Shown piece by piece: positions 1,717 to 62,244 of a DNA stretch of 64,000 nucleotides; position 1 is the first letter of the stretch; each line of letters opens with the position of its first letter. Made by a program: the position numbers and the translations under genes. The stretch lies in the NCBI GenBank assembly GCA_963281255.1, contig OY725496.1, positions 248,001 to 312,000 of the forward strand, in the 5' to 3' direction. Under the pieces are notes generated by a model that had not been told where the DNA came from, ran no database searches, and was given only the letters and a program-made list of their open reading frames with translations. Source of the stretch: Aphrocallistes beatrix (lineage: Eukaryota; Porifera; Hexactinellida; Sceptrulophora; Aphrocallistidae).

Positions 1717-1761
1717 TTGGAAGTTAGTTTTCTTACATTTAACTTTTTTGGAAAAATATTT

Positions 1762-1768
1762 TTTTATA
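1762..1768 (-). promoter_or_regulatory. TATA-like box of the left-edge gene
   Basis: On the minus strand the sequence reads tgtataaaaaaa about 46 bp upstream of the start codon at 1716. The match and spacing suit a core promoter, but AT-rich DNA makes chance matches common. Confidence 0.35.
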
Positions 1769-1951
1769 CACACACTTAAAGCATATGAAATTCCTATTGA
1801 GCTTATTAGTTTCCTGTTCTTTGTTCATTGTCTATTGAATTCATAAAAGGGATCATTATCTCATATTGCCTCATACCAATCCTGAAAGAGTACAATAAGA
1901 ATTTTGTTTAATACGTTCTTCACAATACGTAATAGTTTAGCTTCAATTTAA

Positions 1952-2929: not shown

Positions 2930-2972
2930 TTGCTGAAAATTATTCCTATAAATTTTTGAATATTTGAGAACG

Positions 2973-6902: not shown

Positions 6903-7073
6903 ATGGTGAAAACAAAAGTGAATCGAACCAACTCAGACTATCAATTGACCAGACCAACGATGAAGCCTTATCTCAGATTTGCCATCTTACTCACTTTGCT
7001 CTATTCTGCCACAGCCCAGGACACTGTTCTGACACCTCCAATCGGTGACAGGAGTAGGGAACGGAGAGTTGAA
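6903..7073 (+). CDS. USH2A: Usherin exon 1: signal peptide and mature N-terminus
   Basis: Two in-frame ATGs exist, at 6903 and 6960. From 6960 the protein begins [20 protein letters not shown], a textbook signal peptide with likely cleavage after Ala-Thr-Ala or nearby, so 6960 may be the true start (5038 aa). The 6903 start adds 19 polar residues. The exon ends in phase 0 at a strong gtaagt donor (7074). A 9.1 kb intron follows and hosts a separate bZIP gene. Confidence 0.75.
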
Positions 7074-9889: not shown

Positions 9890-9936
<47 letters not shown>

Positions 9937-9959
9937 TATATATAGATATATATAGATAT

Positions 9960-10018
<59 letters not shown>

Positions 10019-16000: not shown

Positions 16001-19000
16001 ATTTGATTTAATTAAATCAATAAAAAACCTTTTACTCAAAACTTTATTTTATTTTCTAAGAATTTTACATAAATAAGTCGTGTATGAGGTATTCCTAATT
16101 CCTTTACCTAAATATTTCTATGAAATGTCAAATTACTATTGCCAATACTTCCTAGGCTACTAGTACCTGTGGACTTTCAGCATCAGATACGTATTGCAGA
16201 TTTCTGGGTATCTCCAGACCCCCATCAGAATCTCTCTCTCCAAACTGTGTCACAGATATTTGTGATAATACCTGTCCGCATGGAGATACATCTCCAACTC
16301 CTATATACTTGGAAGATGGTAAGATTTCAAGCACAAATATTCATGATTTGTCAACTAATTTAGTCCAACATGTACTTATGAAATATTTTAAATGTTGTAT
16401 CATTCCTACACAGTATTGGAGTCTAAATTAATTGCCGTGAAAATCCTGTGCTAAATGGACTAATTAATCTCATCAGCAGAATTCTGATCCTACTTGTAAT
16501 TTTACCAGCTAGTGAGAATGCAAATATTTTAACAAATGTGTAAATATTTGCATTTTATTATATCCTTAACAAGCCATTTTAGATTATGAGGTTCGTTTGC
16601 CAATTAGGAATCATATTTTTATCATGATTTATGAATCCTATTTGGTATACGTACAAAATGATTATCTATAACAGTGGTTCTCTTATTTTCAAGTTGGATT
16701 CATGTCCCAAGTATGAATTTGGGACTAAATTCAACTTAATAGCACCCTCACTGTATCCTATTCTTTCGAATTCTGAACAAGTAGAACTTTTTCTATCCCA
16801 TAGTAAAAAGTCATTGATCACCAATTAAAATATTTCTCAAGCTCTCTATTATAACATATCTTATACGTATGTATAGATATTAAAGAGTATAGGGCTTTTT
16901 TGGCTACTCTATTTCAATAATGATGCTTGGTAACTTGAATGTAGTGAATAAAGTTTCTCTGCTTAGTTGATACACTTCGGGACGGATTCTGTGACTTCTG
17001 TCATTTTGCTTTAGTAAAGCGGTAATCCCAATTACCCGATTTAAATAGTTTTATGTATGTATCAAAGCATTTGTCCAAACTAACCAGTTAATTAAGGAAA
17101 ATATGTCGACTACATCCAATTCCGTAATAGGATATGTTGATTAATCTAAGATAAATATTTTAAAATTTTCACAGAAATACACTATACAATAACTTTATAA
17201 ATTAATTTGTTAGTGGAAGAGCTAATTTATTCAATAAGATGATCTAGTGACCATAGCAGTATAAGATTCTGTCTAAAAAGGTACTATTCATATATAATGA
17301 GACGTTTATGTTAAAACAGGAAGCGTAATGATATCTGTGACTATATTTTACGATGATATCTGCGTTAATATCTATCATTAATTTCTAGAATGATGCATAG
17401 CAATCTTAATACATTTAGGAAAGAATTTTAATTTAATTTAATTTAATAGTACAGGAAGCAAAGATAATACGGTTTCATCTGCAATAAATCTCTATGGTTA
17501 TACCTAGAAAAATATTATATGTTAAATGTGCAAAGATATTAAGTATATTACGTTTGATATCTATAAAATTTAACGGTATGGTGGAAATAGTTCGCAAAAA
17601 AACAGAAATAGTTCGAATTTCCAAAAAAGGAAATAGTACACATAAAAACCACCATTAATTCTAATGATAAAAAGTCGAACTATTTCCTAAATCTGCAATT
17701 CGAACTATTTCCTTTTTCGAAAAGTCGAACCATTTCCGCATTACCAAATTTAACAATGTGTAGATATCTTATTTTCATGGAGATTGAATGTCATTATTTC
17801 CTTTTATTTAATGAAATTTACAAGTATTTTGCGTTTATAAAATATGTTTAATGAAAGTTTTTAGATAGTTTCAAAAAACAATAGATTCCAGTAAAAACAC
17901 TGGGTACGAATATTCTAGTTAAATAAACATCCTGTAAAAAGGTCTACTTTTATTTTTACAAACCGATTATTATGCATTCTGTGAAGCTTAGCAAAGCATT
18001 AATTTGTTGGATGAAATAGGTATTGATATTATTAATGCTGCTCTCATATAATATTACCTGCTAATATTGCAATTACAGTCGAACCTGCTATAACGGCCAC
18101 TCTATATAACGGTCACCTGTCTATAGCGGTCACCAATGAACAGTCCCGTCCGAAATTCCATAATATTGAACCTGTGTATAGTGGTCACCTGCTCAACGCG
18201 GCCAGCGGCCACCCGTTTGTAATCCCTTACTGACCCTATAACTGTGTATAACGGCCACTACCTGTCTAACGGCCATCACCCTTTCACCTTTTTATGTGTT
18301 TATTACAGGACCTGTTACGAACGATAAACAAGTTACATGTAATTACTTCAAGTAATGGGTTTCTAAAAACTTTGCACTACGTTGATACCTTTTTGGATTA
18401 AGACAATCACCTGTATATAACGGTCACATGTGTATAACGGCCAATTTTGTCCAGTCCCTTGGGTGGCCGTTATATACAGGTGTTATAAATCTTCCAAATA
18501 GTCTTTTAATTTTTCACAAAATGTTATAACCAGTAGAATGATACATTCAGTGAATAATTATAAGAAATACGTACCTAAAATTTAAAAAGAAGTCATTTCA
18601 TAGCCTACTCCATTATTATAGTAGGCTATGGTTATACATTTAATAATACTTGTAATATCCTAATATGATATGATAAGTCAGAAATAATCAAATATTCAAC
18701 ATGTACAAGTATCACGGTAGATGGTCTGCCGTCCTAACTGATCCCCCCTCCCCAGATTTAGAGGGATCAGTTACTAACTATTCGGTACCAGCAAAAAAAT
18801 GGTCCAGCCGAACCCAACTTTTGCGACCAAATGTTTCGTGACAGACCATCTACGACAGTCAGGGATGGTTACCTAGAAGGTCTCGTATGGCCAGACCAAC
18901 ATAAGGATAACCATCCATGACGTGACATTAGCATCATGAAAAGCCCCCACAATTTATACATTTATACATTATACATTTAATCTCTTTATAGGTGCTATTC

Positions 19001-31000: not shown

Positions 31001-34000
31001 ATCTTTAGGCCCATCCGGACAGCAAACACCTCGCATAACATCCTCTGAAAGAGATGCTATTTCGCTGGATTGGGACCCTCCGCTACAACCTAATGGTATA
31101 ATCACCTCATACACAATCTCACGACGTTTCCCAGCCATCACTCTTACCTCACAACCGAATCATGAGAAAGGAATTCGTTTCCATGGAGCGGGTTATGCTC
31201 GTTTCACAGCTGGCACTTTTGTCCCTGGTCTATCCACTACAATACAATTTCTAGTACGGACTTTTTCCAGTAGCGGAATTTTGATGTTATTCTCAACAGC
31301 TAGCATGTCTGACTATATCGTCATTTCATATAACAGTACTTCTGTGCAGTTTGCATTCGATTCAGGTGCAAACTCACCTACGAACACTTTAACATTGAAT
31401 GTCGCGATTGCCAACGGTTTTTGGCACTCAATCACTGCGACTCGTGTTCGAAACGAAGGTACACTTCGTGTTAATAGCAGTTTTACAGTACAGAATACAG
31501 TGATTGGGTCTGATAATGAGATTGCTTCAAGTGTGTTGGCATTTGTTGGAGGTGTGTCTGATGATATTTCCCTTCCGAATGGATTTCCGGTGTTAGCTCA
31601 GTCTAGCTTTGCTGGTTGTATGCGTGACGTGAATTTTAACTCTGAAATGGTGGACTTTGGCACTGTTCAAAGCTCAAAACAATTGAATCTAGGCCTTGAT
31701 GGCTGCCCTCTGTCTATAGAGGAAGGAACACATTATTCTGGAGCTGGTTTCGCGAAATTTGACGCTTCTGTTATCAACTTGAGTGGTGATACATTTGAAA
31801 TCACTTTTGATCTTCGTACCATAGAACCTTCAAGCATTATATTTGCCATTGGACAGGATTCGTCTGTTTCTACAACTGATTTCTTAGTTTTATCGATTTT
31901 CAACTCAGTTCCCATTCTCTCCACCCAAATTGGAGGCACACGAAATACTCTTTCTTTTACAGAAACTGTAGTGACTGTATGTAATGGTCAATGGCATGGA
32001 ATTTCGTTAAGAAAAACCCAGACCTCAATAATCCTGACTGTCGATCAAACTTCACAAACACTTAATGTTCTATCTTCAGTACAAACTGACTTGCTATTCA
32101 TCGGCGGTGTCAATGTACTATCTCCCTTTTATTCCAAACTCATGTCATCTTCAATAGAACTAACCAATTTCGGTGGTTGTTTACGTAATTTGGAAGTAAA
32201 TAACAACAAACTAGACTACACGCTGGCAAGTGAGATACAGAATGTTGACATAGATGGATGCCCCTCTATGGCTGGTGCTTGTAGTGCAGTTGCTATTAAT
32301 GATTTGAACAGTGGGGATGTGCTGAATTTTACTGATTCTGGACTACAATCTTTTCGAGGTTTTTAAAAATTTTATTTACTACATTAGTTTATTTGGTTGA
32401 GTGTATAGCAATAAAAAAGGTCATGTGTATCTTTTCACACCTTTATATACATATGTTCACACCTTTTGACGAATTTTGAAAATTATGCTAGAGATTAGCT
32501 TCTATAACGGTTAATATGGGGTTTTAGGGGTGAATATTTATTTTCGATTTCTTTCTAGAGTATTACTATCGAGTACGTAGTGAGAATGGAGTAGGATCTA
32601 CTGTTGGAAATTGGCAGAGAGCTTCTACTCAACAAGGAGGTTAGTTTACAAATATATATATACGTACGTATATACATATATTTATACTACAGTCGACTCC
32701 GCTTAATAAGGTCACTGTTTAATCGGGTTAACTGTTTAATCGGGCCACTTTTGGTAGGACTGGAATAGCTCTCACACATAGAAGCTAATACAAAATACTT
32801 TCGGTTAATAGGGTTCTCCGCTTAATCGGGACAAAATGTCCTCTGACCGATGTGACCCGATTAAGCGGAGTCGATTGTATATATACTTCTCCACATACAT
32901 GCCGATTTGAGCCATTATAAAAGAAGGACGCGATGATGAATTTCACTGGACATGGCGGAACGCAATAGCTAAGTGTTATACTTGTATAAGGAATCAAAAA
33001 AATCGGGACATAATGGGGAACTTTCATGGAAAAACAGGACACTCGTGAAAGTTAGCTCAATAGAAGAATGACAAAAGCTGGACGGTTGGCATGTACGTGT
33101 ATTGCATGATACAGGTGACTCTGCTTAATCAGGACATTTTGGTCCCGGATATTTTGTCCCGATTAAACGGAATTCCCAATTAACTGATGAAACTTAGTTT
33201 AGCTTCTATGTGTGGGAACCATTCCTTCCCTGGAGACTTCCCAATTAACCTGAGTCCCGATTAAGCGGAGTTGACTGTATTTACATTTCGTTTTCTAGTA
33301 CCGAGTCAACCATCAAGTCTTCAACTCTCAGTTCTTTCAAGTTCTTCTGTACAAGCTACATGGACACCTCCAACCGAGACGAACGGAGTTATCAATTCAT
33401 ACTACATTGCAGTGGATTTAGCTGGTAAATGTTTGGTAGAAATCTCTTGTTTCATGACAATGTTAAAATACCTAAGATGATTTTAATATTTTCAGAGACT
33501 ACCGATCGTTACAACTGATACAGTCGAAGTCCGGTTTATTTTTATACCGTTTTTTTTTGTCCGTCCTTTTTTTGTTGTCTAGGCTATTAAATCAGTTGGA
33601 CAAAAAAACTGCTTACATTTTTTTCCAAATTCCTGCGAAATTATGTGAAAATACGCGTAATTTAATCTTTAAATCTGAACATTTGTACTAAATAGTAGGC
33701 ATCTTTCGGTTTTAGCTAATATTTGTACAGTAGAACCTCCATAATCCGACACTCGTTAGGAAACAAAAAAAGTTTCGGATTACCAAATTGTCGGATTATG
33801 CAGTACAAATTGAATGGTATGAAGCTCATTGGAATATGAAAAAGTGTCAGATTATCGATTATCGAGGTTCTTCTATACTCACAAAACTTTGTTTTTAGGC
33901 TCAACTATTTACAATGCAACAGTTCCAGATACCCAGACCATCCTCAGTATATCTGGACTCAGTCCATTCACTAGTTACACCGTTTCTGTATCCGTACAAC

Positions 34001-47235: not shown

Positions 47236-47297
<62 letters not shown>

Positions 47298-50200
47298 ATA
47301 TATATACAGTCGACTCCGCTTAATAGGGTCACTGGTTAATCGGGTCAGAGTCAACTGTATATATGGATGTAATATTATTCTTGCAATTAAAATGTGAGTT
47401 TTTTAGCAAACATTATTTAAGCAAATAGTTTGTATTGTGACTCCTATCTTGTGTGCCAAATTAATGGAATTTATTTGCCAGAATAATGACATTTCAGATT
47501 TTTTGCCAAAAGAACACTTTATTTGTCAAAATTATGGTACATCCATACTTGATTAAGAATTTGACCACTTTCCATTGTGGGAAGTATTTCCCATTAGTTT
47601 TGGACTATCTTTCTGGCTAACTAATCTTTAAAAAAAACTTGTTTTTACTTACAGCTCCACCTTCAATTACCTACGGAGAAATCACAAGCTACTCCCTCTA
47701 TCTCCGTTCAGTCATTCCTTGTTCCCAAAGTTCAGAGCAAGACACATGCGACTATGTGGAGTGTGTATTAGGACAATCTCAATGCGGTACACAATGCTAT
47801 TTCCCATCAACCCACGTCTGCTGCCAAGGAATGCTTTACTCAAAAACAACGAATTTCGCGTGTTGCAACAGTAACTATACACTACGTAGTGCTAGTACAG
47901 ATGTGTGCTGTGCTGGAACGTTTCAAACTCTACAAACTCAGTCCGTGTGCTGTGGGGGGTTGTATCAAGTGATGCCAGTGGGTGGAGTTTGTTGTGAAGT
48001 TGGTGCTTCTTCTAGTGTAGGAGTTGGTATGTCAACTTTTCATTTGAAATTTAACCAGAGACTGTCTCGTTAATTTATTTTAATACAAGCGCGCTTCGCT
48101 TACTTGCGCTGCGCGGCTTGCGGACACTACGTGTCCGCAGAGTTGCCCAACAAGCGCCTGGAGTTACTTAATCTAACTTATTTTGGGATTTTTTTACTTT
48201 ATATAAATATTGTAAACAAAAGTTAAAGAATAAATTCTCATATGGGCCGAAAATATGATATTCTAAATCTAGAGCCCTGAAAACCCCATGTCAACCGTTG
48301 GAAACCAGCCTCTAGCTTATTTTGTAATTTGTTTACTTTATGTAAACACTTTTTATTTACAGGAGATTCATGTTGTGGACTAACTCCTTTCACTGACACC
48401 GCTGATACGATGTGTTGTGGTGACACTGTAGTAGCGCAACACATCAACACGATGTGCTGTGGAGGCAGTGTGGAGACGACTGTGGGTAGAGTTTGTTGTA
48501 ACGGCGTATCTTATGCTACTACAGATGGGTTTGTGTGCTGTGATACTAGTTATGTAGCTGAGAATGCTACACTTTGTTGCACAGCGAGAAATGGAGTCCA
48601 GAAGGTAAGTTCAACTTAAGAATGGAGAACGATTGTGGGCATGCCTAATTTCCGGGACGGGACGAGTCAAGATGCCTAATCTCCGGGACGGGACAGAAAA
48701 GGTACCTAATTTCTGGGATGGGATGGGATCCCGTCCCGGAAATTAGGCATGCCCACGATTGTTGCAAATCACTAGGAGCCAGGGGTCCTGTAGTGTAGAT
48801 CTTAATGAAAAGAAAATTTACTTTTTAACCGCGCAAATTAAACCTCACTTTTAGGTCATATCCTATAACAGCCCATCACACAAACTTACTGCAAACGAGA
48901 AATGCTGTGACATCACTGCAATTTCATCCCAACTCTCCTGTTGTAATAACCGTGGCTATGACTCACAGATAGAAACATGCGCAGACAGATCAACATCAAC
49001 CGTATCCAACTGTGGAACTGGTGTTACCTGTCCGAATTCACTTTCAAACACTGCTTACTGTAACAGATGCGATTTCGCATTCTCAACACGTACATGTGCC
49101 ACAGTTGATAAAACACTTTCAACCACACAAACCTGCTACCTAACAACTATAATATTCACTGGACTAGCTTTGGGGTATAACGTGACAGGACTCTTACCCT
49201 TTATGCCTTATTTTGTATACGTTGAAGCGTCAAATGCCGCAGGTGCAGGTATTAGCCCTGAGGTATCTGCCCAGACTCTAGAATCCACCCCTCTTGGCCT
49301 ACTCCAACCCTCTCTCACCCCTCTTTCGTCCCAGAGAATTCTAATAGAATGGAGCACACCCATACAACCTAATGGGATTATAATCCATTACTTTGTGAAC
49401 AGAGACGCAATACAAGTTGCTATGGTAAACTCAACACTGTCATATCTTGATGACGAACTATCTCCATTCACACTATACACATACACCATATCTGCTTGTA
49501 CGCGTATTGGCTGTACACAGAGTGAAGCGTCTAATGCGACAACTTTTGAAAGTCCACCGAGCAATCTTTCCCCCCCAGTTTCAACTGGGGTCACTTCTAT
49601 GTCTATAGTATTATCATGGTCTCCTCCCTCATCACCGAATGGTATGATACAGAATTACACAATACAAGATGATGGAAATAACATTATATTTTCAGGCAAT
49701 CTCCTCTCTACAACTGTGACAGGTCTTTCCCCTTTCACTGAATATACCTTTACAATACAAGCTTGTAATAATGTTGACTGTGTTACAAGTTCTTCTGCGC
49801 TTTTCACCACTTCTGAAATCGTGCCTACTGGCATTGACCCTCCTATTTTGCAAATCATTCAGTTTGACGTGATAGAAATAAGTTGGTCACCTCCCACCTC
49901 ACCGAATGGTATAATCCAGTATTTTGTACTACGAAAAAATGAAAATATAATTCTGAACAGTACGAATTTAACCTACACAGACACAGACATCTTCGCTAGC
50001 TCAACATACAGATACACTATCGAAGTCTTTAACAGTGTTGGTTCTATTTTGAGCGGTGCTGCCAGTATAACTACACCCGATTCAACACCTTCTGGTCTCG
50101 ATCCTCCAACGGTAACAGCTTTAAACGCAACAGCTGTTCGAATAGAATGGCAACCTCCAACCTTGCCAAATGGTGTCATAGTACAATACGAATTATACCA

Positions 50201-53200
50201 GGATAATTTTAATTTCATCACCATCACCATTTCAGATGTAACACAGCTTAGTTATATACAAAATGGATTAGACCCATTCACTCAATACAATTTTAGAGTG
50301 GCAGCCTGTACTAGAAATGGCTGTGCCATCTCTACAACGACACAGCAGACAACACTTGAAGCCCCACCCACTGAGATAGCAGCTCCATTCCTCCTTGCCT
50401 TGTCATCATCATCACTACGCATTTCATGGAACCCGCCAAACGCGCTTAACGGTATCATTACAGGTTATGAGCTTTTGCAAACGACACCTCAGCAAACACC
50501 TGTTCTTATTCCCATCCAGCCACAGTTGACTATTAGCGAGATCTCCAGTCTAAATCCATTCACAGAGTATACGTACACTGTGAAAGCTCGTAATAGCGCA
50601 GGGAGTGTTACGAGTGGACCTACGTCTGTTCGAACCTTTGAAGATGTGCCAATGCTTTTCAACGCACCTCTTATAACTAACGTCACAGCACGAACTTTAC
50701 TCATAACCTGGAATGTCCCGATGAAACCTAACGGGATAATAACACTATACGCTATATACGCTAGACTTTTAACCACACCGCTAAATCCTATTCCCATCAA
50801 CCGTGAACCTGTGCTATACTTAACCGTAGGCGGAAATGTGACAGCGAGTTTAGTGCAGGATTTAGAACCAGGCTCCAGTTATGAATTCAGGATAGCAGCT
50901 AATAACAGTGTGGGACAGGTTATCACTGCATGGGTGCCTGTATCCACTGCTGAAGACCGACCTGAATCGTTACAACCAATTCAGTATAATACTGATCCAT
51001 CAGGTACAGCTTTAGATTTGTTCTGGGCTGAGCCGTTAAAACCGAATGGTATCATCAATTTGTACAATATCATCCTTATCTCCACGGGAAGTTTAATTTT
51101 TAGAGGTGTCTCAAACTCGTTTACATATAGACAGCTCACCCCATTCACTCAATACGATCTCTACCTACAAGCCTGTACAACAGCTGGATGCACGAACGGA
51201 AATAATCAAGCAATAACTACCGCAGAAGTTGCTCCTACCAATCAAAATCCTCCCATCCTTGATACTCTCGGCCCCTCATCAATTCGTATCTCATGGCAAT
51301 TGCCGTTGAATCCTAATGGCATTATAACTCGCTTTAGAATTGAACGTGGAAACCCAGATGGAACTATTTCCCTCATACACACTGTCCTTAACACAACTCA
51401 ACGTAATTTTATCGACACTGGGTTATTACCCTATACCATATACAATTATTCAATGATAGCTGAAAACAGTGTCGGAGAGACACAAAGCGAATTTTCCTCG
51501 CAACGGACTGATGAAGGGATTCCAACTGGACTTGAAAGGCCAACTGTCATCCCACAATTGTCCACAGAAGTCCTAATCCAATGGACAATCCCTTCTTCAC
51601 CAAACGGGGTTATAACGAATTATGACGTCATACGAAATGGTAGTACTATTAACTCTTTAGTCAGTGCTTTTGAGTTCCGTGACAGAAACTTGAACCCGTT
51701 CACTTACTACAGTTACCAGATCAAAGCTTGCAATACAAGAGGAGGCTGTGTCACTAGCCCTGCAACGTTGGCCCAAACTTTAGAAAGCATCCCAGAAGGT
51801 GTCATCACGCCTAGTCTTAACGCCATCTCCTTTTCACAGGTTGAAATCACATGGTCCCCACCCACTATACCTAATGGCATCGTGCAACGTTACATGTTAC
51901 GTGTTAATGACGTCAATGGAAGTACGGTTATAACATCTTTTATGTACACTTTAGATGGATTATCGCCTGCTACAGGCTATGCTATATCCATAATAGCCTG
52001 TACTAGTATAGGGTGCAATTACGGGCCTAGTTCAAGTGTGTTGACACTGGAGTATATTCCGTCTGGTCAGCCAGCCCCTGGAGTTAGTACGACCAGCCCC
52101 AAATCTTCAATCGTATCATGGGGACCCCCCACTATGGCTAACGGTATTATTATCCGGTATGACGTCATAAGGAATGGGACGCTTATTCAGTCAACGAATG
52201 ATACACAGAATCGTATGTATGCTGATACAGGACTAGCACCTGCTATGAGTTATGAATACACTATAAGGGCGTATACTATGATTGGAGCTAGCGATCCTAG
52301 TCCTGGTACGTTAATAACGACTTCACCAGATGCCCCTGAACTAGTTCGCCCCCCCACGCTTACAGCTTTATCTTCATCATCTTTCAACGCTGTTTGGTTC
52401 GTTCCACTTATCCCGAACGGGATCATAACACGTTATGATTTGATCGTGGGTGGTAATGTTATTTTCACTGGGCTGGAACTTGAATATAATGTAACGGGTC
52501 TCGCACCTTTTACTGTATATAATGTCCAGATACGTGCATGCACTACAACCTGTTCTGTTAGTTCTATCGTCTCTATCCATACCAACCCTGATACGCCATC
52601 TGGACAGCCAGCTCCTGTGTTAAGTGCACATTCGGGACCTTCTGTATTCGTTCAATGGAGTCCACCGTCCAATCCCAACGGACTCATCTCTGAATATCAA
52701 ATTTTTCGCAGAGAAGAATTCAACATAAATGGACAGATCACTTTTTCAGATGAAATACTCGCCGTAACTGTTACAGGCGTTTTGCAAGCGTTTGATAATA
52801 GTACCCAATTGAAATTCTACACAACATACCAGTACAAAGTTGTTGTTGTCAATTTGGTTGGCAGTGCGATCAGTGAATGGACTGATATACGTACAGTTGA
52901 GGGAATACCCCAAGATGTAGTTCCCCCCGCATTAGTGTCCAACACATTCAACTCTATTACAATTCGTATCTTACCTCCACTCAATCCTAATGGTATTATC
53001 AGGAAGTATATCGTATTCAGAGGTGGAATGCAATTTGCTGAGTTAGCAGGTTAGTTAATAATTGTTGAGAGCTAACCTCAATTTCAAGACGTATCAGCTG
53101 ATAAGCCTTCTAGAACAGTGTTTCCCAACTCATAATTATCCCCAAAATAATCTCCAAATACCAGAGTGGACCAGGGGTCACTTACTTTGACCCATGACCC

Positions 53201-59200: not shown

Positions 59201-62200
59201 ATTGACTTATTTTTTCTCCTAACATTTTATTTTGTATCAGCTATTATCTCTTTGAATTCTATGTTATATACCATTCTTAGATCCTTCTACAACTATCTTT
59301 GTAACTCCGACTCAGATAGTTCCTTCACCAGTTAGTCCCAGCTCAGCACAAGCAATTATAGTCATCATAATAGCTGTATTGATCGTGTTAGGTTAGTTAT
59401 TACTTATTATGATAGTCGCAATCCTATTTTTCTTCAAGGTTGACAGGTTTTTGATTATTACCGGGTTATTACCAGGAAGTTCAAACTGAGACTATATTTT
59501 ACCTGAAAAGTTGAATTTCAATCAAAATATTACATTTCTTATCAAAATATACAGTTTCAGTTGAACTAGTTTACGCATATCAGTTTTTTTGCAGGGCTAA
59601 GCCCCTTTTTGTCCAGGTTTTGTAGAGTTACCTTCTTTTCCTGAATAAGCACCCCGGTGCTTGTTCTTTTTCCTGCTCAAAAACTTCCAGAGCTCCAAAT
59701 TTTAAAGCGCCATATCTGTTCAAAAACAGTCGCAATTGGAAGAGATAAACGATTTCTTACATAGGAATCTATATATTAAATGAATTTTGGTTCAGAGTAA
59801 CGAGTTACGTACTAACCGAGTTCTACTCTATTTCACTACATCCTAGATTAGAATTAGAATTAATACAAAATCTACTACACTTGGGACTTGGAATTTTAGC
59901 AACCAATGTGGGGATTTGCTAATACAGTCAGGGTCGCTTATTATGAACCCGCTTTATATGAGCATTCGTTTATTATGAACTAACCTCCTGGTCCCAATTT
60001 CACTTTTTAGAAAGGATTTGTATTGAATCAAATTAATGTGAAGTACAGTCTACTCCGCTTAATAGGGCCACTGTTTAATCGGGTCAGCCGCTTAATCGGG
60101 CCACTTTTGGTAGGACCGGAATAGCTCTCACACATAGAAGCTAATACAAAATATTTTCGGTTAATAGGGTACTCCGCTTAATCGGGGCAAAATGTCCTCT
60201 GACCGATGTGGCCCTATTAAGCGGAGTCGACTGTATCTCTATTATGAGCAGATTTTTTGGTCCCCTGGTGATTCACAATAAGCGACCCTGAATGTAAATG
60301 CGAACTCCACTACTGTAATTATATTTCTCTACATCCTGTGCTATAGGTATCTTGTTCTGTTGCTTCGTGTTTTGTCTCGTGATTATCGCTTCGCGTAGAG
60401 ACCGTGATCGGTATCGTACTCAACTGAAACAAACGCTGACTCCCTTACTAGACAGTGATAAGATTGATGAACACATCTCAGACCTCACTCTACAGGAATC
60501 CCTCATGCTAGTGAGTAGTTGCTAGATTCGTATATGTTTTCAAAATAAAGTGGGAGTTTAGTATACAGTCCCGGCCAAAAGTCTGGAATATTGTATGTAA
60601 AATATGAATATTCTAGTTTTAGCAAAATAACAAATTTTAATATTGCAGAATATTTTTTATCAATTTAATGCAATGAAAATCGAGAGTCTACTCTTTCTAT
60701 AACACGAAAAGTATGAAATATTTAATTAAAATATATTATATGTTTATTACCGGGCGAATTCAAAAAAATTAGAAAATACTAAAATATTCCAGACTTTTTG
60801 CAGGGACTGTATGTTACAGTTAAAACGTCAAATCAGTTATTATGTATAATACCTGGAAATTCCAGGCATTTCCCATCAGTTATTATGCATAAGACCTGAA
60901 ATTTTCAGGTTTTAGCGAGCAAGATCGCATCTAGCCATTCCCCTGGGGGGGTCAAACTCCCCCTGAAAATATCTTAGACCCCTTAACCTCCCGGAAATCA
61001 AGGGCCGGATCCAACCCTGTTATCGAAGGTGTACTCATTTTGGGCGGGAAAATCATAGAAATGTGTCGCATTTACTATAAATAGAATATCCTCCAGGGCT
61101 AATTATGGATTATCTATATAGTATGTTAAAAATGACATTTTTAGGAGAATCGCTCTAACAACTTTGATCTGTCTCTTCCTCGTTCTAAGCAGTCAGTATC
61201 GACTGTCGCTAACTCCAGTATATCCTACGCGAACTCAGTTAGAACACCTCCTAGCATGGGCTACTCTCCTCGCCTCACACACGTAAGTTTATGGTAGGAT
61301 TAGCTCCGAATAATTTTTTACCTTATATGGTAATTTTGTGCGATTTTTTGATTAAATTTTCTGGTCTAAACACTGATTGCAAATATGTGACATAGTTTAT
61401 GCTTATCAGAAGTTTTGAAACAAATTTTAGAATCAGGACGCCAAGTTTAAAATGGGCTATCTCAGAAGGAGAAATTGAAGAATTTCGAATTAAAATTATA
61501 TACGAATATTTAGGTCTTATTTAAAAAACTAAAGAACTCCAGCAGTCTCCAGATTTTTTCATATCCCAAGATTTCAAATTGAAAAATGAACGGCCTGTTG
61601 CATGAAAAAATGCCCCCACCATGGATATTCATGTAATATGGGGAGGGGGCAAAATTTAATGGAGTTAGCGTGAAAAATTGCCCCCCCCGTGAAAAAATGC
61701 CCCCCACCATGGATATTCTAAAGTATGCCAATGCTTATACAAAACATTTTGAATGCTATTTGGCTTCTATTCGTTTACTAAAGCATTGCAAATCAACAAA
61801 CTAGTCGTGTGAAGTAATAACAATGACTTTCATAAATGTATCGTATATAAATAGTATCAGCAATATTTAGTGTTAAACTCAAGAATATCCATGGTGGGGG
61901 CATTTTTTCATGCAACAGACCTCCGTTCATTTTGCAATTTGAAATCTTGGGATATGAAAAATTGTCGAGACTGCAGAAGTTCAATCGTTACAAATGACCA
62001 CTTTTTAAAGCCAAATTCTGAGAAAATATGCTTAATTTAACTTGAAATATTGAACGTCTTAAAATTAGCGCCATTCTTCTTCGGTTAACCTGTAAAAGTA
62101 AAGAAATCTTCGAAAAGATTTGTAAATATGAATATAATTTAAAGATTTTTTTCATCGATCTAGTTGGATGCACCCTTGAGGCAGACTTCTGACATTGACA

Positions 62201-62244
62201 CCTATTCTCAAGATGAATCCGGGTTTAGAGATACAAAATTATAA
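6903..62244 (+). CDS. USH2A: Usherin orthologue, complete 45-exon gene, 5057 aa
   Basis: Single-pass extracellular-matrix/adhesion protein; vertebrate usherin forms stereociliary ankle links and periciliary links, with its PDZ ligand bound by whirlin and harmonin. Predicted exons: 6903-7073, 16156-16318, 18992-19169, 19338-19621, 20280-20343, 20980-21256, 21856-22046, 22186-22389, 22586-22673, 22831-22978, 24485-24645, 24708-24919, 25284-25631, 25797-26053, 27130-27355, 27722-27885, 28618-29067, 29417-29806, 30260-30538, 31009-32358, 32559-32639, 33299-33424, 33899-34057, 34469-34756, 35869-36051, 36651-36914, 37786-38178, 39105-39389, 40214-40483, 40959-41261, 44473-44910, 45217-45566, 46175-46441, 46811-46943, 47655-48026, 48363-48604, 48855-53049, 53748-53973, 54704-54933, 58348-58527, 58982-59071, 59281-59391, 60347-60510, 61145-61282, 62164-62244. 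All introns are GT-AG, phases agree at every junction, and the total (15,174 nt) is a whole number of codons. Human usherin is 5202 aa with the same domain order. No frameshift or stop was found. Individual splice sites are manual predictions. Confidence 0.9.
7293..7456. repeat. Long near-perfect palindrome (two ~75 bp arms)
   Basis: Arms 7293-7368 and 7382-7456 are inverted copies with only a few mismatches, separated by about 13 bp. The transcript of usherin intron 1 could fold here into a long hairpin. It probably derives from a MITE. Confidence 0.8.
7487..7605. mobile_element. TA-CAGT MITE remnant, ctataacgg type
   Basis: Starts TACAGTAGAACCTGCTATAACGG like the better-preserved copy at 18074-18487, with internal tataGCGGTCACC words. 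The right end is lost. Confidence 0.5.
7751..7883. repeat. Inverted-repeat element with ggcgccgaac ends
   Basis: Ends ggcgccgaac and gttcggcgcc are inverse, and the interior has GC-homopolymer words such as ggggggggctcaagcccc and gatggcccatagacgcaata. The same interior words recur at 42404-42475. Confidence 0.5.
9890..10052. repeat. (TA)n and (GATA)n compound microsatellite
   Basis: An alternating TA tract (about 9890-9931) passes into degenerate then regular tagatagatagat repeats. Long translations through it are artefacts of the repeat. Confidence 0.95.
12030..12201. repeat. Foldback element with gacacagctg ends
   Basis: Arms of about 60 bp starting gacacagctgtggtaccaat and ending ggtgccgcagctgtgtca are inverted and enclose a G-run and tctagaat words. 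Probably a MITE. Confidence 0.7.
13169..13180 (+). promoter_or_regulatory. TATA box of the nested bZIP gene
   Basis: The sequence atatataaaagg is a close match to the TATAAAAG consensus and lies about 60 bp before the bZIP ATG at 13236, leaving room for a short 5' UTR. This supports an independent promoter inside the usherin intron. Confidence 0.5.
13236..13760 (+). CDS. bZIP transcription factor (Maf/CNC-like), intronless, 174 aa
   Basis: Nuclear DNA-binding protein nested in usherin intron 1 on the same strand. The N-terminal 45 residues are rich in Pro, Tyr and Ser, like an activation segment. Residues 85-102 (VQDLNKILQ then SVFSESE) resemble the extended-homology region that precedes the basic region in Maf and CNC proteins. 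The basic region is about 103-130 with the core [10 protein letters not shown] at 115-124, then a leucine zipper with heptad positions L134, L141, L148, L155 and Y162. Leu is replaced by Tyr at the last heptad. The basic core lacks the Asn-x-x-Ala-Ala-x-x-Cys/Ser-Arg form (Leu stands before Arg), so the DNA preference could be altered. The ATG at 13236 follows a TATA box; ATTAAA at 13849-13854 may be the poly(A) signal. Family placement within bZIPs is tentative; membership of bZIP is firm. Confidence 0.85.
   Translation: MMNTEYQVYSTPIPTTYIPPYSGFDLPSPPSPYYNDDGPKYQPILQNKLKKCLTLKDLLVDNWQVKIYKSQFISLLDSHKVAFKIGVQDLNKILQCSVFSESERKRIKKLRYQGRNNEAAKTLRIKNKKRETELHVSLSELEQTRVDLRKEKERLKQEINYYQSALTNQFDFSN
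14108..14299. mobile_element. Pogo/Tigger-like MITE (TTAAGCGGA family)
   Basis: Begins TA-CAGTCGACTCCGCTTAAT and ends with its inverse ATTAAGCGGAGTCGACTG-TA: a TA target site plus CAGT termini, as in the pogo/Tigger branch of Tc1/mariner. Internal words acatcggtcagaggacat and gcttctatgtgtgagagc are shared by all copies. About 192 bp, no coding capacity. Confidence 0.8.
14542..14918 (-). repeat. Partial copy of the GC-hairpin-ended repeat
   Basis: Same orientation as the 5095-5688 arm but lacking its inner third. It keeps both TGACGTCA palindromes, the tgactcatcactctgtt stretch and the GC-rich hairpin end. It starts 0.8 kb downstream of the bZIP gene. Confidence 0.75.
15358..15448. repeat. 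Short foldback
   Basis: Inverted arms built on tcatcattttccattaaaa and ttttaatggaaaatgatg with a ~25 bp centre. Confidence 0.65.
16156..16318 (+). CDS. USH2A: Usherin exon 2: N-terminal cysteine segment
   Basis: Reads [16 protein letters not shown], then six-cysteine text with [11 protein letters not shown], matching the Cys-containing segment just after the signal peptide in vertebrate usherin. Acceptor cctag, donor gtaaga; enters in phase 0, exits in phase 1. The next exon is 2.7 kb away. Confidence 0.8.
17577..17746. mobile_element. MITE, ggtatggtggaaatagttcg family, copy 2
   Basis: Same ends and interior words as the copy at 6189-6345, with an extra ~30 bp in the centre. Confidence 0.65.
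18074..18487. mobile_element. TA-CAGT MITE, ctataacggcc type
   Basis: Begins TACAGTCGAACCTGCTATAA and carries many tataacggcc/ggtcacctgt words; the right end has the inverse ggccgttatatacaggt. Its terminus resembles, but is not the same as, the TTAAGCGGA family. Confidence 0.65.
18992..20343 (+). CDS. USH2A: Usherin exons 3-5: LamG-like domain
   Basis: Exons 18992-19169, 19338-19621 and 20280-20343 encode a concanavalin-like jelly-roll domain. Landmarks are [23 protein letters not shown] and [11 protein letters not shown], then [10 protein letters not shown], the usual order for the N-terminal LamG-like domain of usherin. Phases 1-2, 2-1 and 1-2 join in frame. Intron 4 (19622-20279) and intron 5 (20344-20979) are AT-rich with nothing recognisable. 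Confidence 0.85.
20980..22389 (+). CDS. USH2A: Usherin exons 6-8: laminin N-terminal domain
   Basis: Exons 20980-21256, 21856-22046 and 22186-22389. The first has CRCPPSNP, then [16 protein letters not shown]-like text and [15 protein letters not shown], matching the CRCPG...VSRLNPEAHP...VNDNDVGTSW region of vertebrate usherin. The second has the [11 protein letters not shown] and VCLNTFS blocks, the third the QIRLSF and [14 protein letters not shown] blocks typical of laminin N-terminal domains. The domain leads directly into the first EGF repeat. Intron 6 (21257-21855) shows no other feature. Confidence 0.85.
22586..27885 (+). CDS. USH2A: Usherin exons 9-16: ten laminin-type EGF repeats
   Basis: Exons 22586-22673, 22831-22978, 24485-24645, 24708-24919, 25284-25631, 25797-26053, 27130-27355 and 27722-27885 encode about residues 512-1045. 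Ten eight-cysteine EGF-Lam units are countable, the vertebrate number, each with the C-x-C-N start, the GQCxCK centre and the CDxCxxGF end (for example [15 protein letters not shown]). Repeat 2 is longer, as in vertebrates ([13 protein letters not shown]). Repeat 9 has an insert between GQCACR and GRTCEAC. Exon boundaries fall mainly just after the DG/TTG before the first cysteine, in phase 2. Exon 14 uses a weak gttgtt donor. Confidence 0.9.
23144..23488. mobile_element. Inverted-repeat element, gggccgtagac type
   Basis: Terminal inverted repeats of about 15 bp (cagggccgtagacaa and inverse), with ggggcttaagcccc and agccccccca arms inside. Related ends occur near 5990-6065. No coding capacity. 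Confidence 0.6.
23616..23807. mobile_element. TTAAGCGGA-family MITE
   Basis: Full-length copy with TACAGTCGACTCCGCTTAAT ends, in usherin intron 10. Confidence 0.8.
24982..25173. mobile_element. TTAAGCGGA-family MITE
   Basis: Full-length copy in intron 12, inverted relative to the 23616 copy; left terminus has TTG for TCG. Confidence 0.8.
26222..26412. mobile_element. TTAAGCGGA-family MITE
   Basis: Full-length copy in intron 14, TA-flanked. Confidence 0.8.
26557..26830. mobile_element. TTAAGCGGA MITE flanked by an exact 42-bp direct repeat
   Basis: The MITE (26597-26788) is bracketed by identical 42-bp segments at 26557-26598 and 26789-26830, both ending gtatagaatactata. Pogo-like elements duplicate only TA, so the 42-bp repeat needs another explanation. 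Confidence 0.85.
27390..27547. mobile_element. Foldback MITE, agggcatgcctaatttccgg type
   Basis: Ends gggcatgcctaatttccggg and inverse; the interior repeats gggacgggac and gtcccgtcccg. A sister copy is at 48638-48755. No coding capacity. Confidence 0.7.
28021..28143. mobile_element. TA-CAGT MITE, attcgtattaacg type
   Basis: Ends TACAGTAGAAATTTGTGCGT and inverse-like gagtttctactgta flank 123 bp with attcgtattaac words. A relic with the same words lies at 29995-30085. Confidence 0.6.
28384..28530. mobile_element. Inverted-repeat element, agaggcgtagccag type
   Basis: agaggcgtagccag at the left and ctggctacgcctct at the right are inverse; the interior has ggtgcggcaa words. Related text occurs at 55476-55560. 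Confidence 0.65.
28618..30538 (+). CDS. USH2A: Usherin exons 17-19: FN3 domains 1-4
   Basis: Exons 28618-29067, 29417-29806 and 30260-30538. Each FN3 shows the order: P-x-x-L/V start, W-x-P-P ([29 protein letters not shown]), LxPFTxY and the TLE/TTL end. The second is split at [10 protein letters not shown] between exons 17 and 18. Four FN3 units between the EGF array and the LamG pair is the vertebrate arrangement. Phase 1 introns throughout. An in-frame link IGCGNSS recurs in FN3 2 and 4. Confidence 0.88.
29209..29370. mobile_element. TA-CAGT MITE, gcttattagcaa type
   Basis: TACAGTGGAATTTGCTTATT at the left and aataagcgaattccactgta at the right are inverse. 162 bp; ends 46 bp before exon 18. 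A decayed relative lies at 41280-41420. Confidence 0.75.
30539..31008. other. Usherin intron 19
   Basis: AT-rich intron with a C-rich stretch (gaacccccccctcccc, about 30725) and no recognisable element or exon. Confidence 0.5.
31009..32639 (+). CDS. USH2A: Usherin exons 20-21: FN3-5 split by two LamG domains
   Basis: Exon 20 (31009-32358, 1350 bp) begins with the first half of an FN3 ([18 protein letters not shown]), then switches to [12 protein letters not shown] and two laminin G domains. LamG-1 has [20 protein letters not shown] and the closing FAGCMRDV...DGCP; LamG-2 starts [12 protein letters not shown] and has [19 protein letters not shown] and [10 protein letters not shown]...DGCP. 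Exon 21 (32559-32639) completes the FN3 ([18 protein letters not shown]). Vertebrate usherin has the same split. Exon 20 ends at a weak gttttt donor; the frame and homology both need that junction. Confidence 0.88.
32688..32879. mobile_element. TTAAGCGGA-family MITE
   Basis: Full-length copy in intron 21 with some drift (tcgattgta right end). Confidence 0.75.
33110..33279. mobile_element. Diverged TTAAGCGGA-type MITE ending 19 bp before exon 22
   Basis: Left end TACAGGTGACTCTGCTTAAT, right end ATTAAGCGGAGTTGACTGTA. Internal words attccttccctggaga place it in a variant subfamily also seen at 37202-37374. Only ttacatttcgttttctag separates it from exon 22. Confidence 0.7.
33299..46943 (+). CDS. 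USH2A: Usherin exons 22-34: about twelve FN3 domains (FN3 6-17) and start of FN3-18
   Basis: Exons 33299-33424, 33899-34057, 34469-34756, 35869-36051, 36651-36914, 37786-38178, 39105-39389, 40214-40483, 40959-41261, 44473-44910, 45217-45566, 46175-46441 and 46811-46943. FN3 units are recognised by W-x-P-P or equivalent followed by PNG ([18 protein letters not shown]), L-x-P-F/Y-T-x-Y, A-C-T-x-x-G-C and TLE/TTL ends. Some domains fill one exon with phase 1 ends (exons 24, 28, 29, 30), others are split mid-domain. Introns 32 and 33 are phase 0, as needed to keep the FN3-16/17 text ([14 protein letters not shown]). Exons 31 and 33 end in unusual gtttgt and gttcgt donors. All junctions keep frame, but single boundaries may move by a few codons. 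Confidence 0.85.
33726..33876. mobile_element. TA-CAGT MITE, ctccataatccga type, ending 22 bp before exon 23
   Basis: Left end TACAGTAGAACCTCCATAAT, right end tcgaggttcttctata; interior tcggattatc words in both orientations. Short distance to the exon 23 acceptor. Confidence 0.65.
34150..34325. repeat. tgggaatacccaca simple foldback repeat
   Basis: Repeats of cccattcccatcccat and inverse tgggaataccca in intron 23. No gene. Confidence 0.6.
34802..34914. repeat. Perfect 47-bp inverted repeat hairpin
   Basis: Arms 34802-34848 and 34869-34914 are exact inverse copies (catagcccactgtatataag and ttatatacagtgggctatg at the ends) with a ~20 bp loop, in usherin intron 24. Confidence 0.85.
35045..35600. 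mobile_element. Foldback element with 31-bp subterminal tandem repeats
   Basis: Left end tgcatttgtcagaattttga and its inverse near 35585. The right arm has about six tandem copies of a 31-bp unit containing cattctgacaagtgacagca (35364-35549); the left arm has about three inverted copies. The arrays match the structure of tandem-repeat foldback transposons. Confidence 0.75.
36964..37155. mobile_element. TTAAGCGGA-family MITE
   Basis: Full-length copy in intron 26, preceded by a 40-bp fragment of the variant subfamily (36921-36962). Confidence 0.8.
37202..37374. mobile_element. Variant TTAAGCGGA-type MITE
   Basis: TACAGTCAACTCCGCTGAAT left end; right end tcccgattaagcggagtcac. Shares ctccaggaacggaatggttc with the variants at 33110 and 58800. 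Confidence 0.65.
38179..39104. other. Usherin intron 27
   Basis: Contains a repeat with words gataggagtcacaa and aatgtcattatttaagc (about 38440-38770) whose inverse occurs in intron 34 (about 47400-47560). No exon seen. Confidence 0.5.
39537..39617. mobile_element. Small MITE with cagggtgtctcaaaag ends
   Basis: Inverted termini cagggtgtctcaaaag and ctttgagacactctgta enclose ~80 bp in intron 28. Confidence 0.5.
39979..40136. mobile_element. TTAAGCGGA-family MITE with internal deletion
   Basis: 158 bp copy in intron 28; lacks about 35 bp near the left end. Confidence 0.75.
40624..40745. repeat. Dispersed repeat, gggcggggaaacctta type
   Basis: Words taactcttaaatggcgctag, gggcggggaaaccttagaagtg and atagaaatgac..ccaggtaattt are shared by 29848-29965, 40624-40745 and 53986-54106, with shorter relics at 61035-61105 and, inverted, near 58590-58640. 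About 120 bp, no inverted ends seen. Confidence 0.6.
41642..41916. mobile_element. hAT-like MITE with 8-bp target duplication
   Basis: Element 41650-41908 has ends CAGCGGTTTTCAACC and GGAAACCACTG, typical hAT (CAGTGGTT) termini, and is flanked on both sides by tcctattt (41642-41649 and 41909-41916). 259 bp, non-coding. Confidence 0.85.
42130..42303 (-). pseudogene. NHL-repeat fragment
   Basis: The minus strand reads [20 protein letters not shown] followed by IQIID, a near-ideal NHL beta-propeller blade. The frame stops at 42130. No start codon, promoter or splice-linked partner is evident. With the fragment at 43480-43870 it looks like remains of a TRIM/NHL-type gene inserted antisense into usherin intron 30. 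Confidence 0.55.
42490..42608. repeat. GC-rich palindrome
   Basis: Arms of about 52 bp (tgggtcgatgagcaggtg and inverse) around a short centre. Flanked by GC-homopolymer repeats. Confidence 0.75.
43480..43870 (-). pseudogene. TRIM/NHL-type pseudogene fragment with frameshifts
   Basis: Reading down the minus strand: a coiled-coil-like piece ([18 protein letters not shown]), then, after a frame change and a stop, [22 protein letters not shown], then after a further shift [20 protein letters not shown] followed by TEG, an NHL blade. This order (coiled coil, PNY linker, first NHL blade) is that of the B-box/NHL proteins I recall as abundant in sponge genomes. At least two frame breaks make it non-functional. 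Confidence 0.5.
45601..46080. mobile_element. Tc1/mariner-like MITE, right end damaged
   Basis: cctgtaccaaagtattcgta(cacccc) at the left and ggggtgtacggatacttta at the right are inverse, in intron 32. Confidence 0.55.
46944..47654. other. Usherin intron 34 with two MITEs around a (TA)n tract
   Basis: A TTAAGCGGA MITE (47064-47240) is followed by (TA)n (about 47239-47300) and then a ~55 bp truncated MITE with both outer ends (47305-47359). The remainder carries the intron 27-related repeat in inverse orientation. Confidence 0.7.
47655..49150 (+). CDS. USH2A: Usherin exons 35-37 (start): cysteine-rich module inside FN3-18
   Basis: Exons 47655-48026, 48363-48604 and the first ~300 bp of exon 37 (48855-53049), about residues 3050-3345. 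FN3-18 starts in exon 34 (SFMAIWGAPPS) and continues [13 protein letters not shown], then is interrupted by [11 protein letters not shown] and a run of 13 Cys-Cys pairs (five in exon 35, six in exon 36, two in exon 37), such as HVCCQGM, DVCCAGT, MCCGGS and VCCNGV. After [11 protein letters not shown]-like text ([16 protein letters not shown]) the FN3 resumes at [19 protein letters not shown]. Vertebrate usherin has the same module at the same place. Its fold is unknown to me. Confidence 0.9.
48084..48170 (+). repeat. Terminal fragment of the GC-hairpin repeat
   Basis: Matches the outer end of the 1952-2520 arm (acaagcgcgcttcgcttac, gcggacac-tac-gtgtccgc) in intron 35. Confidence 0.7.
48638..48755. 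mobile_element. Foldback MITE, gggcatgcctaatttccgg type, copy 2
   Basis: Same ends and gggacgggac interior as 27390-27547, in usherin intron 36. Confidence 0.7.
48855..53049 (+). CDS. USH2A: Usherin exon 37: 4195-bp exon with thirteen FN3 domains
   Basis: After the end of the cysteine module and second half of FN3-18, this exon encodes FN3 19-31 and the first part of FN3-32 without an intron. Domain starts are [117 protein letters not shown] and PQDVVPPAL. Most have W-x-x-P-x-x-PNGxI and an ACTxxGC-like strand. It ends at MQFAELAG in phase 1 with gttagt. Elsewhere in the gene each exon carries at most about two FN3 domains. Confidence 0.92.
53050..53747. other. Usherin intron 37 with gacccat minisatellite
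   Basis: Irregular tandem gacccat/ttgacccatc units fill about 53188-53355; a related inverse phrase (atgggtcaagaggtcgtgac) is at 53527. The ends cagtgtttcccaact (53115) look hAT-like but I could not match a target duplication. Confidence 0.6.
53748..54933 (+). CDS. USH2A: Usherin exons 38-39: FN3 32 (end) and 33
   Basis: Exon 53748-53973 finishes FN3-32 ([19 protein letters not shown]) and starts FN3-33 ([17 protein letters not shown]). Exon 54704-54933 has [14 protein letters not shown], a two-cysteine insert found at the same place in vertebrate usherin, then [16 protein letters not shown]. The exon 38 acceptor follows aacactaag, a less pyrimidine-rich end than usual. Confidence 0.82.
53974..54703. 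other. Usherin intron 38
   Basis: A copy of the gggcggggaaacctta repeat begins within about 12 bp of the exon 38 donor; then a G-homopolymer/GATC-like foldback (54110-54435) and a TACAGTCGAAATCGGGGTTT relic (54433-54560) related to text at 33513 and 56283. Confidence 0.55.
55143..55387. repeat. Array of gagtcat / atgactc palindromic words
   Basis: About 20 occurrences of GAGTCA or its inverse TGACTC in 245 bp, many as tgactcgagtca. Includes the true AP-1 heptamer TGACTCA. Confidence 0.75.
55583..55790. repeat. Long near-perfect palindrome
   Basis: tggatctaaggcttgtggaa at about 55583 is inverse to ttccacaagccttagatcca near 55780, and the arms meet at catatggtgaat. About 100 bp per arm. Confidence 0.8.
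58348..59071 (+). CDS. USH2A: Usherin exons 40-41: last, degenerate FN3 domain
   Basis: Exons 58348-58527 and 58982-59071. Reads [20 protein letters not shown] then [17 protein letters not shown]. It matches the juxtamembrane FN3 of vertebrate usherin (VNWSDTFLLNGQLKEY), which also lacks the PP of W-x-x-P-P. Ends [13 protein letters not shown] ends 31 bp before exon 41. Confidence 0.82.
58800..58950. mobile_element. Decayed variant TTAAGCGGA MITE, ending 31 bp before exon 41
   Basis: Right end gattaagcagagtcaactgta and internal tctccaggaacgaaatag mark the variant subfamily; the left end is eroded. Confidence 0.6.
59281..62244 (+). CDS. USH2A: Usherin exons 42-45: transmembrane helix, cytoplasmic tail and PDZ ligand
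   Basis: Exons 59281-59391, 60347-60510, 61145-61282 and 62164-62244. A Ser/Pro/Thr-rich stalk leads into [13 protein letters not shown] joined across intron 42 to [16 protein letters not shown] (about residues 4918-4946), stopped by RRDRDRYR. The tail has 111 residues, with SLPRSK and SVRTPPSMG basic/Ser-rich words, and ends SGFRDTKL. The last four residues fit the class I PDZ pattern (T/S-x-L) and differ from vertebrate DTHL only at position -1, so binding to whirlin- or harmonin-type PDZ proteins is likely. Stop TAA 62242-62244. Splicing the helix across two exons is supported by frame on both sides. Confidence 0.88.
59923..60296. mobile_element. TA-CAGT MITE (gggtcgcttatt type) with a nested TTAAGCGGA MITE
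   Basis: Outer ends TACAGTCAGGGTCGCTTATT and aataagcgaccctgaatgta; inside lies a full TTAAGCGGA copy (60044-60235). The outer element ends 50 bp before exon 43. Nesting shows the TTAAGCGGA insertion is the younger. Confidence 0.8.
60564..60811. mobile_element. Tc1/mariner-like MITE
   Basis: TA-CAGTCCCGGCCAAAAGTC... and inverse ...GACTTTTTGCAGGGACTG-TA. Termini of this form are typical of Tc1/mariner elements. 248 bp, AT-rich interior, non-coding. Confidence 0.75.
61533..61982. repeat. 450-bp foldback with ~100 bp arms in usherin intron 44
   Basis: Left arm 61533-61630 and right arm 61883-61982 share inverse words atcccaagatttcaaattga, catgaaaaaatgccc and ccatggatattc. A third copy of the ccatggatattc phrase is near 61700-61720. 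Confidence 0.8.

Follow-up and report, generated by a model that had tools for sequence, protein, structure and literature searches.

A single long gene lies on the plus strand of the window, by which we mean the whole stretch of 64,000 nucleotides analysed here (G000:C10:248001-312000), taken from a genome of 100.54 Mb in 28 contigs, 19 of which exceed 2.8 Mb. When read in six frames, this strand carries, in order, open frames with laminin-EGF, FN3, LamG and CC-rich features. Curation by hand gathers them into one gene of 45 exons (6903-62244), with consistent phases and introns that are all of the GT-AG type, three of them longer than 3 kb. From the ATG at 6903 to the stop codon at 62242-62244 the coding sequence has 15147 nt, that is 5049 codons including the stop, for a protein of 5048 residues. 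The original prediction had counted exactly 5058 codons with all phases consistent: the phases are consistent here too, and its count exceeds that of the curated model by nine codons. The gene is organized as follows:

6903..62244, plus strand: usherin (USH2A) gene model, 45 exons, from hand curation, with full-length alignment to human usherin
6903..7073, plus strand: exon 1, start and signal-peptide-like segment, from sequence and splice donor; a hydrophobic stretch follows the Met at 6960, the signal peptide being called by eye
16156..16318, plus strand: exon 2, Cys segment near the N terminus, corresponding to human residues 51-102 in the alignment
18992-19169, 19338-19621, 20280-20343 and 20980-21256, plus strand: exons 3-6, laminin-G-like domain (Laminin_G_3, 9.4e-15) and first part of the laminin N-terminal domain (Laminin_N, 2.3e-29), from Pfam and alignment
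21856-22046 and 22186-22389, plus strand: exons 7-8, laminin N-terminal domain (Pfam Laminin_N); in the PDB, netrin-1 gives the best matches (2e-40), which extend into the first LE repeats
22586-22673, 22831-22978, 24485-24645 and 24708-24919, plus strand: exons 9-12, laminin EGF repeats, from Pfam and alignment
25284-25631, 25797-26053, 27130-27355 and 27722-27885, plus strand: exons 13-16, laminin EGF repeats, from Pfam and alignment; over exons 9-16, EGF_laminin matches ten stretches (1.3e-77), with 41.5% identity to human LE1-10
28618-29067, 29417-29806 and 30260-30538, plus strand: exons 17-19, first FN3 block, from Pfam fn3 and FN3 HMM positions
31009..32358, plus strand: exon 20, a pair of laminin G domains (PF00054 at 31254-31652 and 31812-32216) within an FN3 domain
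32559-32639, 33299-33424, 33899-34057, 34469-34756, 35869-36051, 36651-36914 and 37786-38178, plus strand: exons 21-27, second FN3 block, from the FN3 profile
39105-39389, 40220-40483, 40959-41261, 44473-44910, 45217-45566, 46175-46441 and 46811-46943, plus strand: exons 28-34, second FN3 block, from the FN3 profile
47655..49110 (end approximate), plus strand: Cys-rich galaxin-like module (Pfam Galaxin_repeat, 2.5e-13) inside an FN3 domain, on exons 35-36 (47655-48026 and 48363-48604) and the start of exon 37
48855..53049, plus strand: exon 37, a single exon of 4195 bp with the last part of the Cys module and the bulk of the third FN3 block; its open frame of 1399 codons scores 709 bits by tblastn to human usherin
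53748-53973, 54704-54933, 58348-58527 and 58982-59071, plus strand: exons 38-41, last FN3 domains, from alignment and the FN3 profile
59281-59391 and 60347-60510, plus strand: exons 42 and 43 of the hand-curated model; an in-frame stop lies directly beyond 60510
59352-59391 and 60347-60390, plus strand: transmembrane helix, split by an intron, identified by eye and aligned to the human transmembrane segment
60391..62241, plus strand: cytoplasmic tail, on the rest of exon 43, exon 44 (61145-61282) and exon 45 (62185-62244)
62230..62241, plus strand: C-terminal DTKL, of the class I PDZ-binding form, in both the gene-finder and the hand-curated models

Pfam, applied to 2528 of the 5048 residues, identifies ten EGF_laminin stretches, Laminin_N, Laminin_G_3, two copies of Laminin_G, fn3 and, on the Cys module, Galaxin_repeat. 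Together with alignment and inspection of the sequence, this bears out the domain order that had been proposed for the locus: ten laminin-EGF repeats, the LamG pair, the Cys-rich module, a transmembrane helix and the terminal DTKL.

A home-made, splice-aware gene finder, run without homology, also returned one gene, with 90 exons at 6688-62244 and the same DTKL exon (protein end GFRDTKL), while adding small exons that are spurious and a bZIP ORF nested within the gene. Its score was 865.6 on the forward strand; the reverse strand scored 211.4, and the ten dinucleotide shuffles 143-175. The coding model was trained on 20073 codons from long ORFs, those of the window among them. The chosen frame scores highest in 44 of the 45 exons; the exception is the last one, only 60 nt long, which bears DTKL and has a weak coding signal. 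With a homology bonus, the mildest intron penalty kept a single gene, two heavier ones split it at 26097/27102, inside the laminin-EGF block, and the heaviest also dropped the first and last usherin exons, so that the gene ended earlier.

The first intron (9 kb) contains a nested single-exon ORF of the Maf bZIP type (13227-13757, plus strand; PF03131, 7.2e-06). This ORF and the small exons that the gene finder placed between 7.1 and 18.9 kb were rejected as parts of usherin, because the join between exons 1 and 2 keeps the phase and exon 2 can be aligned with the human protein. Upstream of the gene lies a single-exon ORF of 270 residues, named tetraspanin-like by eye (2952-3764, plus strand), and an open frame of 608 codons (1-1824, minus strand) runs off the left edge of the window. 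Several introns (e.g. 14166-14489, 23674-23862, 47099-47394 and 60020-60260) harbour recurrent transposon-like stretches with similar translated signatures, adjoining AT-rich microsatellites.

Usherin is a central protein of human deaf-blindness (Usher syndrome), and the function of its ectodomain is poorly known. The human reference sequence used here covers residues 33-5202 and was tested against the positions named in PMC7317166. It agrees at 54 of 55 of them (52/52 of those first picked and 2/3 of the others), the odd one being position 3441, where text and legend of that source disagree. Against this sequence, blastp aligns residues 47-4874 of the window protein with human residues 43-5002 in one HSP of 5065 columns (31.4% identity, 2259 bits), and a global alignment gives 33.0% identity over 4920 aligned positions. 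By region, identity is 25.9% at the N terminus, 22.0% in the laminin-G-like domain (LGL), 32.4% in the laminin N-terminal domain (LN), 41.5% in the LE repeats, 33.1% in F1-4, 28.7% in the LamG pair, 32.0% in F5-16, 34.0% in the Cys linker between F16 and F17, 34.6% in the last FN3 block, 23.4% in the juxtamembrane segment, 23.3% in the transmembrane segment and 32.2% in the cytoplasmic region (87 aligned positions).

A profile of FN3 domains, made from the two proteins together, finds 36 segments in each, partial ones included, in the same order. In both, one FN3 domain is interrupted by the LamG pair and another by the Cys module, each leaving two partial matches at the same ordinal positions. 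Among the 31 full FN3 pairs, the same-index mean score is 118.3 as against 79.8 off the diagonal (75-85 for shifts of one to four), a value reached in none of 20000 permutations. Row by row, the same-index partner ranks first in only 11 of 31 cases, and column by column in 9 of 31; it scores above all sponge paralogues in 5 of 31. The signal is thus one of positional orthology of the array, as judged by profile scores, and is not certain for each repeat.

Searching the genome gave a contrasted picture. With the Cys module as the query, whether from the window or from human usherin, all three matches (3/3 each time) fall in the window locus. A human LGL-LN-LE query gave seven matches, three of which, elsewhere in the genome, score 103.9, 101.9 and 53.2 bits, above the window exons (44.6 and 40); these three begin at query residue 323, 431 or 492, in the LN-LE part. 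The spliced window protein reaches 249.4 bits over query residues 8-574. In the direction from human protein to this genome, the reciprocal search that had been suggested thus singles out the window locus for the Cys module, but not for LGL-LN-LE taken exon by exon. A better match to another FN3/LamG family, which would have undone the original prediction, did not materialize as far as the domain architecture and the queries of this genome tell. A tenascin- or perlecan-like protein was rejected on architecture, given the combination of laminin N-terminal, LE, FN3, LamG and galaxin-like domains with a transmembrane segment, as set against the general make-up of those families. Conservation of introns with human exon 13 (limits from PMC7317166) was dropped as an argument, one boundary being two residues off and the other unmatched.

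The assignment of the gene as a USH2A orthologue is supported by the full-length alignment, by an FN3 array that matches in position and is interrupted at the same points, and by a Cys module that the queries find nowhere else in this genome. In line with the original prediction of a complete usherin in an invertebrate, the protein aligns end to end with human usherin, with the same domain order and a DTKL tail. Human usherin (5202 residues) has in common with it the domain order, the ten LE repeats, the LamG pair, the Cys module, the order of FN3 domains, the transmembrane segment and a class I PDZ tail. The sponge protein differs in being 154 residues shorter, with 33% identity, a shorter cytoplasmic tail and DTKL in place of DTHL.

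The host displays the traits of a glass sponge. On a contig of 17,996 bp (C28), cox1 has 523 codons, with 14 TGA, no TGG and 42 ATA; it is preceded by nad3 (named by eye), which contains one TGG. Compared by eye with the COX1 chain 8ugh_4A, none of 16 AGA codons falls at an arginine and six fall at serine, while seven of nine CGN codons fall at arginine. Reading AGR as serine also occurs in bilaterians and is not by itself diagnostic of a hexactinellid. Glass sponges are described as reading AGR as serine, using UGA for tryptophan while avoiding UGG, and preferring AUA, and nad3 adjoins cox1 in Aphrocallistes (PMC2267718, PMC5908954). A genome search for homeodomains gave at least 19 matches (24 of 24 candidates scored), and 20 homeodomain proteins are reported in the glass sponge Oopsacas (PMC10280926). 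The mitochondrial code and a homeodomain count near that of Oopsacas make Hexactinellida the most likely class of the host, as far as its sequences tell. Glass sponges are animals without eyes, ears or nerves.

Candidate partners of usherin are encoded in the same genome:

contig C1, 8.58-8.61 Mb, minus strand: ADGRV1-like gene, with a Calx-beta array, a LamG-like domain, GPS, seven transmembrane segments (7TM) and DTHL, joined by adjacency
contig C1, 0.518-0.521 Mb: whirlin-like gene, with an N-terminal HHD-like segment, PDZ1 and PDZ2 in order; a further PDZ domain lies at C1:521095 on the same strand
contig C20, 2.537-2.552 Mb, minus strand: whirlin/PDZD7-like gene, with PDZ1, linker and PDZ2 in order and PDZ3 about 10 kb beyond, taken as one gene by adjacency
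contig C1, 5.82 Mb: harmonin-like gene, with two PDZ domains and an N-terminal harmonin domain that barely passes its cut-off

Eight of the 11 Calx-beta matches in the genome lie on the minus strand of C1 (8.583-8.613 Mb), one ORF there also having a LamG-like domain. Downstream of this cluster, an ORF combines GPS (the sole family given by Pfam) with seven hydrophobic segments seen by eye. Its best PDB sequence match is ADGRV1 (9fte, 7.8e-18), aligned through the last residue: the sponge protein ends in RRISIADTHL and the ADGRV1 of 9fte in RRIPIADTHL, with IADTHL identical. The Calx-beta position and this match are the grounds for calling the gene ADGRV1-like. PF00002 has at least 134 matches in the genome, and among the matches listed none falls at this locus. 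No match was found for the EAR repeats of ADGRV1 with the EPTP profile, the control searches being empty as well. Elsewhere, a dense array of 7tm_2 (family B-like) GPCRs extends over 4.94-5.90 Mb of contig C4, with 53 of the 54 C4 matches among the matches listed, and a Calx-beta match on contig C11 (434563-434799, minus strand) sits in a 5904-codon open frame, the genome having several such giant frames on single exons.

Human whirlin, used as a query, gave 17 matches in the genome, the two best on C1 at 0.5187-0.5194 Mb and the next two on C20. The view that the C20 gene is the sole whirlin was rejected on this account, and the C1 gene at 0.519 Mb is the better candidate, by sequence match, for a whirlin. 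The N-terminal segment of the C1 gene resembles a harmonin-homology domain, though its Pfam matches stay under the cut-offs (USH1C_N 0.02, CCM2_C 0.0072). Its PDZ1 matches DLG4 best in the PDB, then whirlin; its PDZ2 matches 1uf1 best (71.2 bits), there named KIAA1526, which we take to be the whirlin PDZ2 chain. At C20, no harmonin-homology domain was found in the gene, and PDZ3 has DLG4 as its best match, extending over several domains, followed by four whirlin chains; InaD-like and scribble chains rank ahead of PDZD7. The PDZ3 frame (C20:2537301-2538000, minus strand) ends in LEPETSF before the stop, itself a possible PDZ ligand tail. In the harmonin-like gene, the first part matches harmonin best, and the single PDZ domains match DLG4, whirlin or scribble equally or better.

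The scaffold PDZ domains carry the LGF loop and the helix histidine, the latter kept, as judged by eye, in PDZ1 and PDZ2 of both the C1 (0.519 Mb) and C20 genes. We take this histidine to be the position of THAEAV or LHDEAV in human whirlin, which presumably places it under the class I rule. Gene structure, orthology, partner genes, both tails and these two scaffold features can all be read in the assembled genome. The partner search put forward with the original prediction was productive, with an ADGRV1-like gene ending in DTHL, two whirlin/PDZD7-like genes and one harmonin-like gene. The vertebrate USH2 ankle-link complex comprises USH2A, ADGRV1, WHRN and PDZD7; the sponge counterparts are USH2A, one gene resembling ADGRV1 and two of the whirlin/PDZD7 type. 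In both, the two membrane proteins have DTxL tails; the sponge set belongs to an animal without hair cells. Since usherin and ADGRV1-like, whirlin/PDZD7-like and harmonin-like genes share this genome, the set predates eyes and ears, as had been predicted, a view already published for freshwater demosponges (PMC4942974).

In Ephydatia, a freshwater sponge, orthologues of usherin and VLGR1 were reported in 2016 to be enriched in choanocytes, and two whirlin homologues were likewise reported (PMC4942974). This set, likened to ours by description only, has orthologues of the same two proteins and two whirlin homologues, in a demosponge. In Amphimedon, Aqu2.1.32274_001 is annotated as usherin in a table of PMC5890393, a likeness by name only. 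Usherin in sponges and its likely place at the collar are thus already in print (PMC4942974) and not new in principle. In the open-licence literature we found no prior report of a glass-sponge usherin or of conserved tails in sponges, and the main text of both glass-sponge genome papers leaves usherin unmentioned. The glass sponge contributes an unbroken domain architecture, a DTxL tail on each of the two membrane proteins, and retention in a class reported to be without most basement-membrane components. In vertebrates, the USH2A and ADGRV1 tails both end in DTHL. The USH2A tail depends on this motif to bind whirlin; the binding of ADGRV1 relies more on the N-terminal domain of whirlin and suffered less when the tail motif was lost (PMC10039067).

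We consider it probable that the glass-sponge USH2A orthologue takes part, with ADGRV1, in links between microvilli or between collar and flagellum, docked by the two tails on whirlin-like scaffolds. The gene encodes a very long single-pass membrane protein, the ectodomain of which (a LamG-like domain, a laminin N-terminal domain, ten laminin-EGF repeats and thirty-odd FN3 domains with two inserted modules) would span, in a link with ADGRV1, the gap between neighbouring microvilli or from the collar to the flagellum. The two tails, DTKL in usherin and DTHL in ADGRV1, would bind class I PDZ domains carried by the whirlin-like scaffolds and so anchor the links to actin cores. This supposes that the tails bind these domains, that the genes are expressed together and that their products lie at the collar and act as links; the choanocyte enrichment in Ephydatia, which belongs to another sponge class, speaks for such a place.

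Other accounts have to be weighed. That annotation joined two or more adjacent FN3/laminin genes into something that is not an usherin is very improbable: heavier intron penalties do split the gene at 26097/27102, and it has three long introns, yet such a cut would sever the laminin-EGF block, while the joined protein forms one HSP with human usherin and has both FN3 insertion points in common with it. A true orthologue might instead serve mainly in the extracellular matrix or in basal adhesion, through its laminin-like N terminus, rather than in apical links. The netrin- and laminin-like character of this region points that way, as does the binding of collagen and fibronectin by human usherin LE repeats in vitro (PMC7317166). 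We nevertheless find this unlikely. Oopsacas is described as having no basement-membrane components except laminins (PMC10280926), which weakens a basement-membrane role in glass sponges, and ADGRV1-like and whirlin-like genes are kept, with matching tails and PDZ domains.

The conserved tail and scaffold could also belong to a complex of other cilia, in larval multiciliated cells or in signalling at the ciliary base, and not of collars. Multiciliated cells are reported in Oopsacas larvae (PMC10280926), which gives this account some appeal; it remains a minority view for us, as usherin and VLGR1 are both choanocyte-enriched in Ephydatia, albeit in another sponge class (PMC4942974). Collar links are thus the preferred reading. 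We are evenly divided on a broader claim: that glass sponges kept the whole USH2 kit despite their missing basement-membrane parts and syncytial tissue, that ancestral collar linking was separate from a basement-membrane role, and that DTxL-whirlin docking is older than the split between sponges and vertebrates.

The match implies that the number of FN3 domains, the two inserted modules and the PDZ tail were already fixed when sponges and vertebrates separated, and have been kept ever since. Because the positional match extends over the whole array, constraint probably acts along the full length of the rod and not at its ends alone, and deep alignments of usherin may be used for judging missense variants. 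An animal without hair cells, photoreceptors or basement membrane is, moreover, a system for asking what usherin does. The finding fits an origin of usherin in the collar links of feeding cells, long before sense organs.
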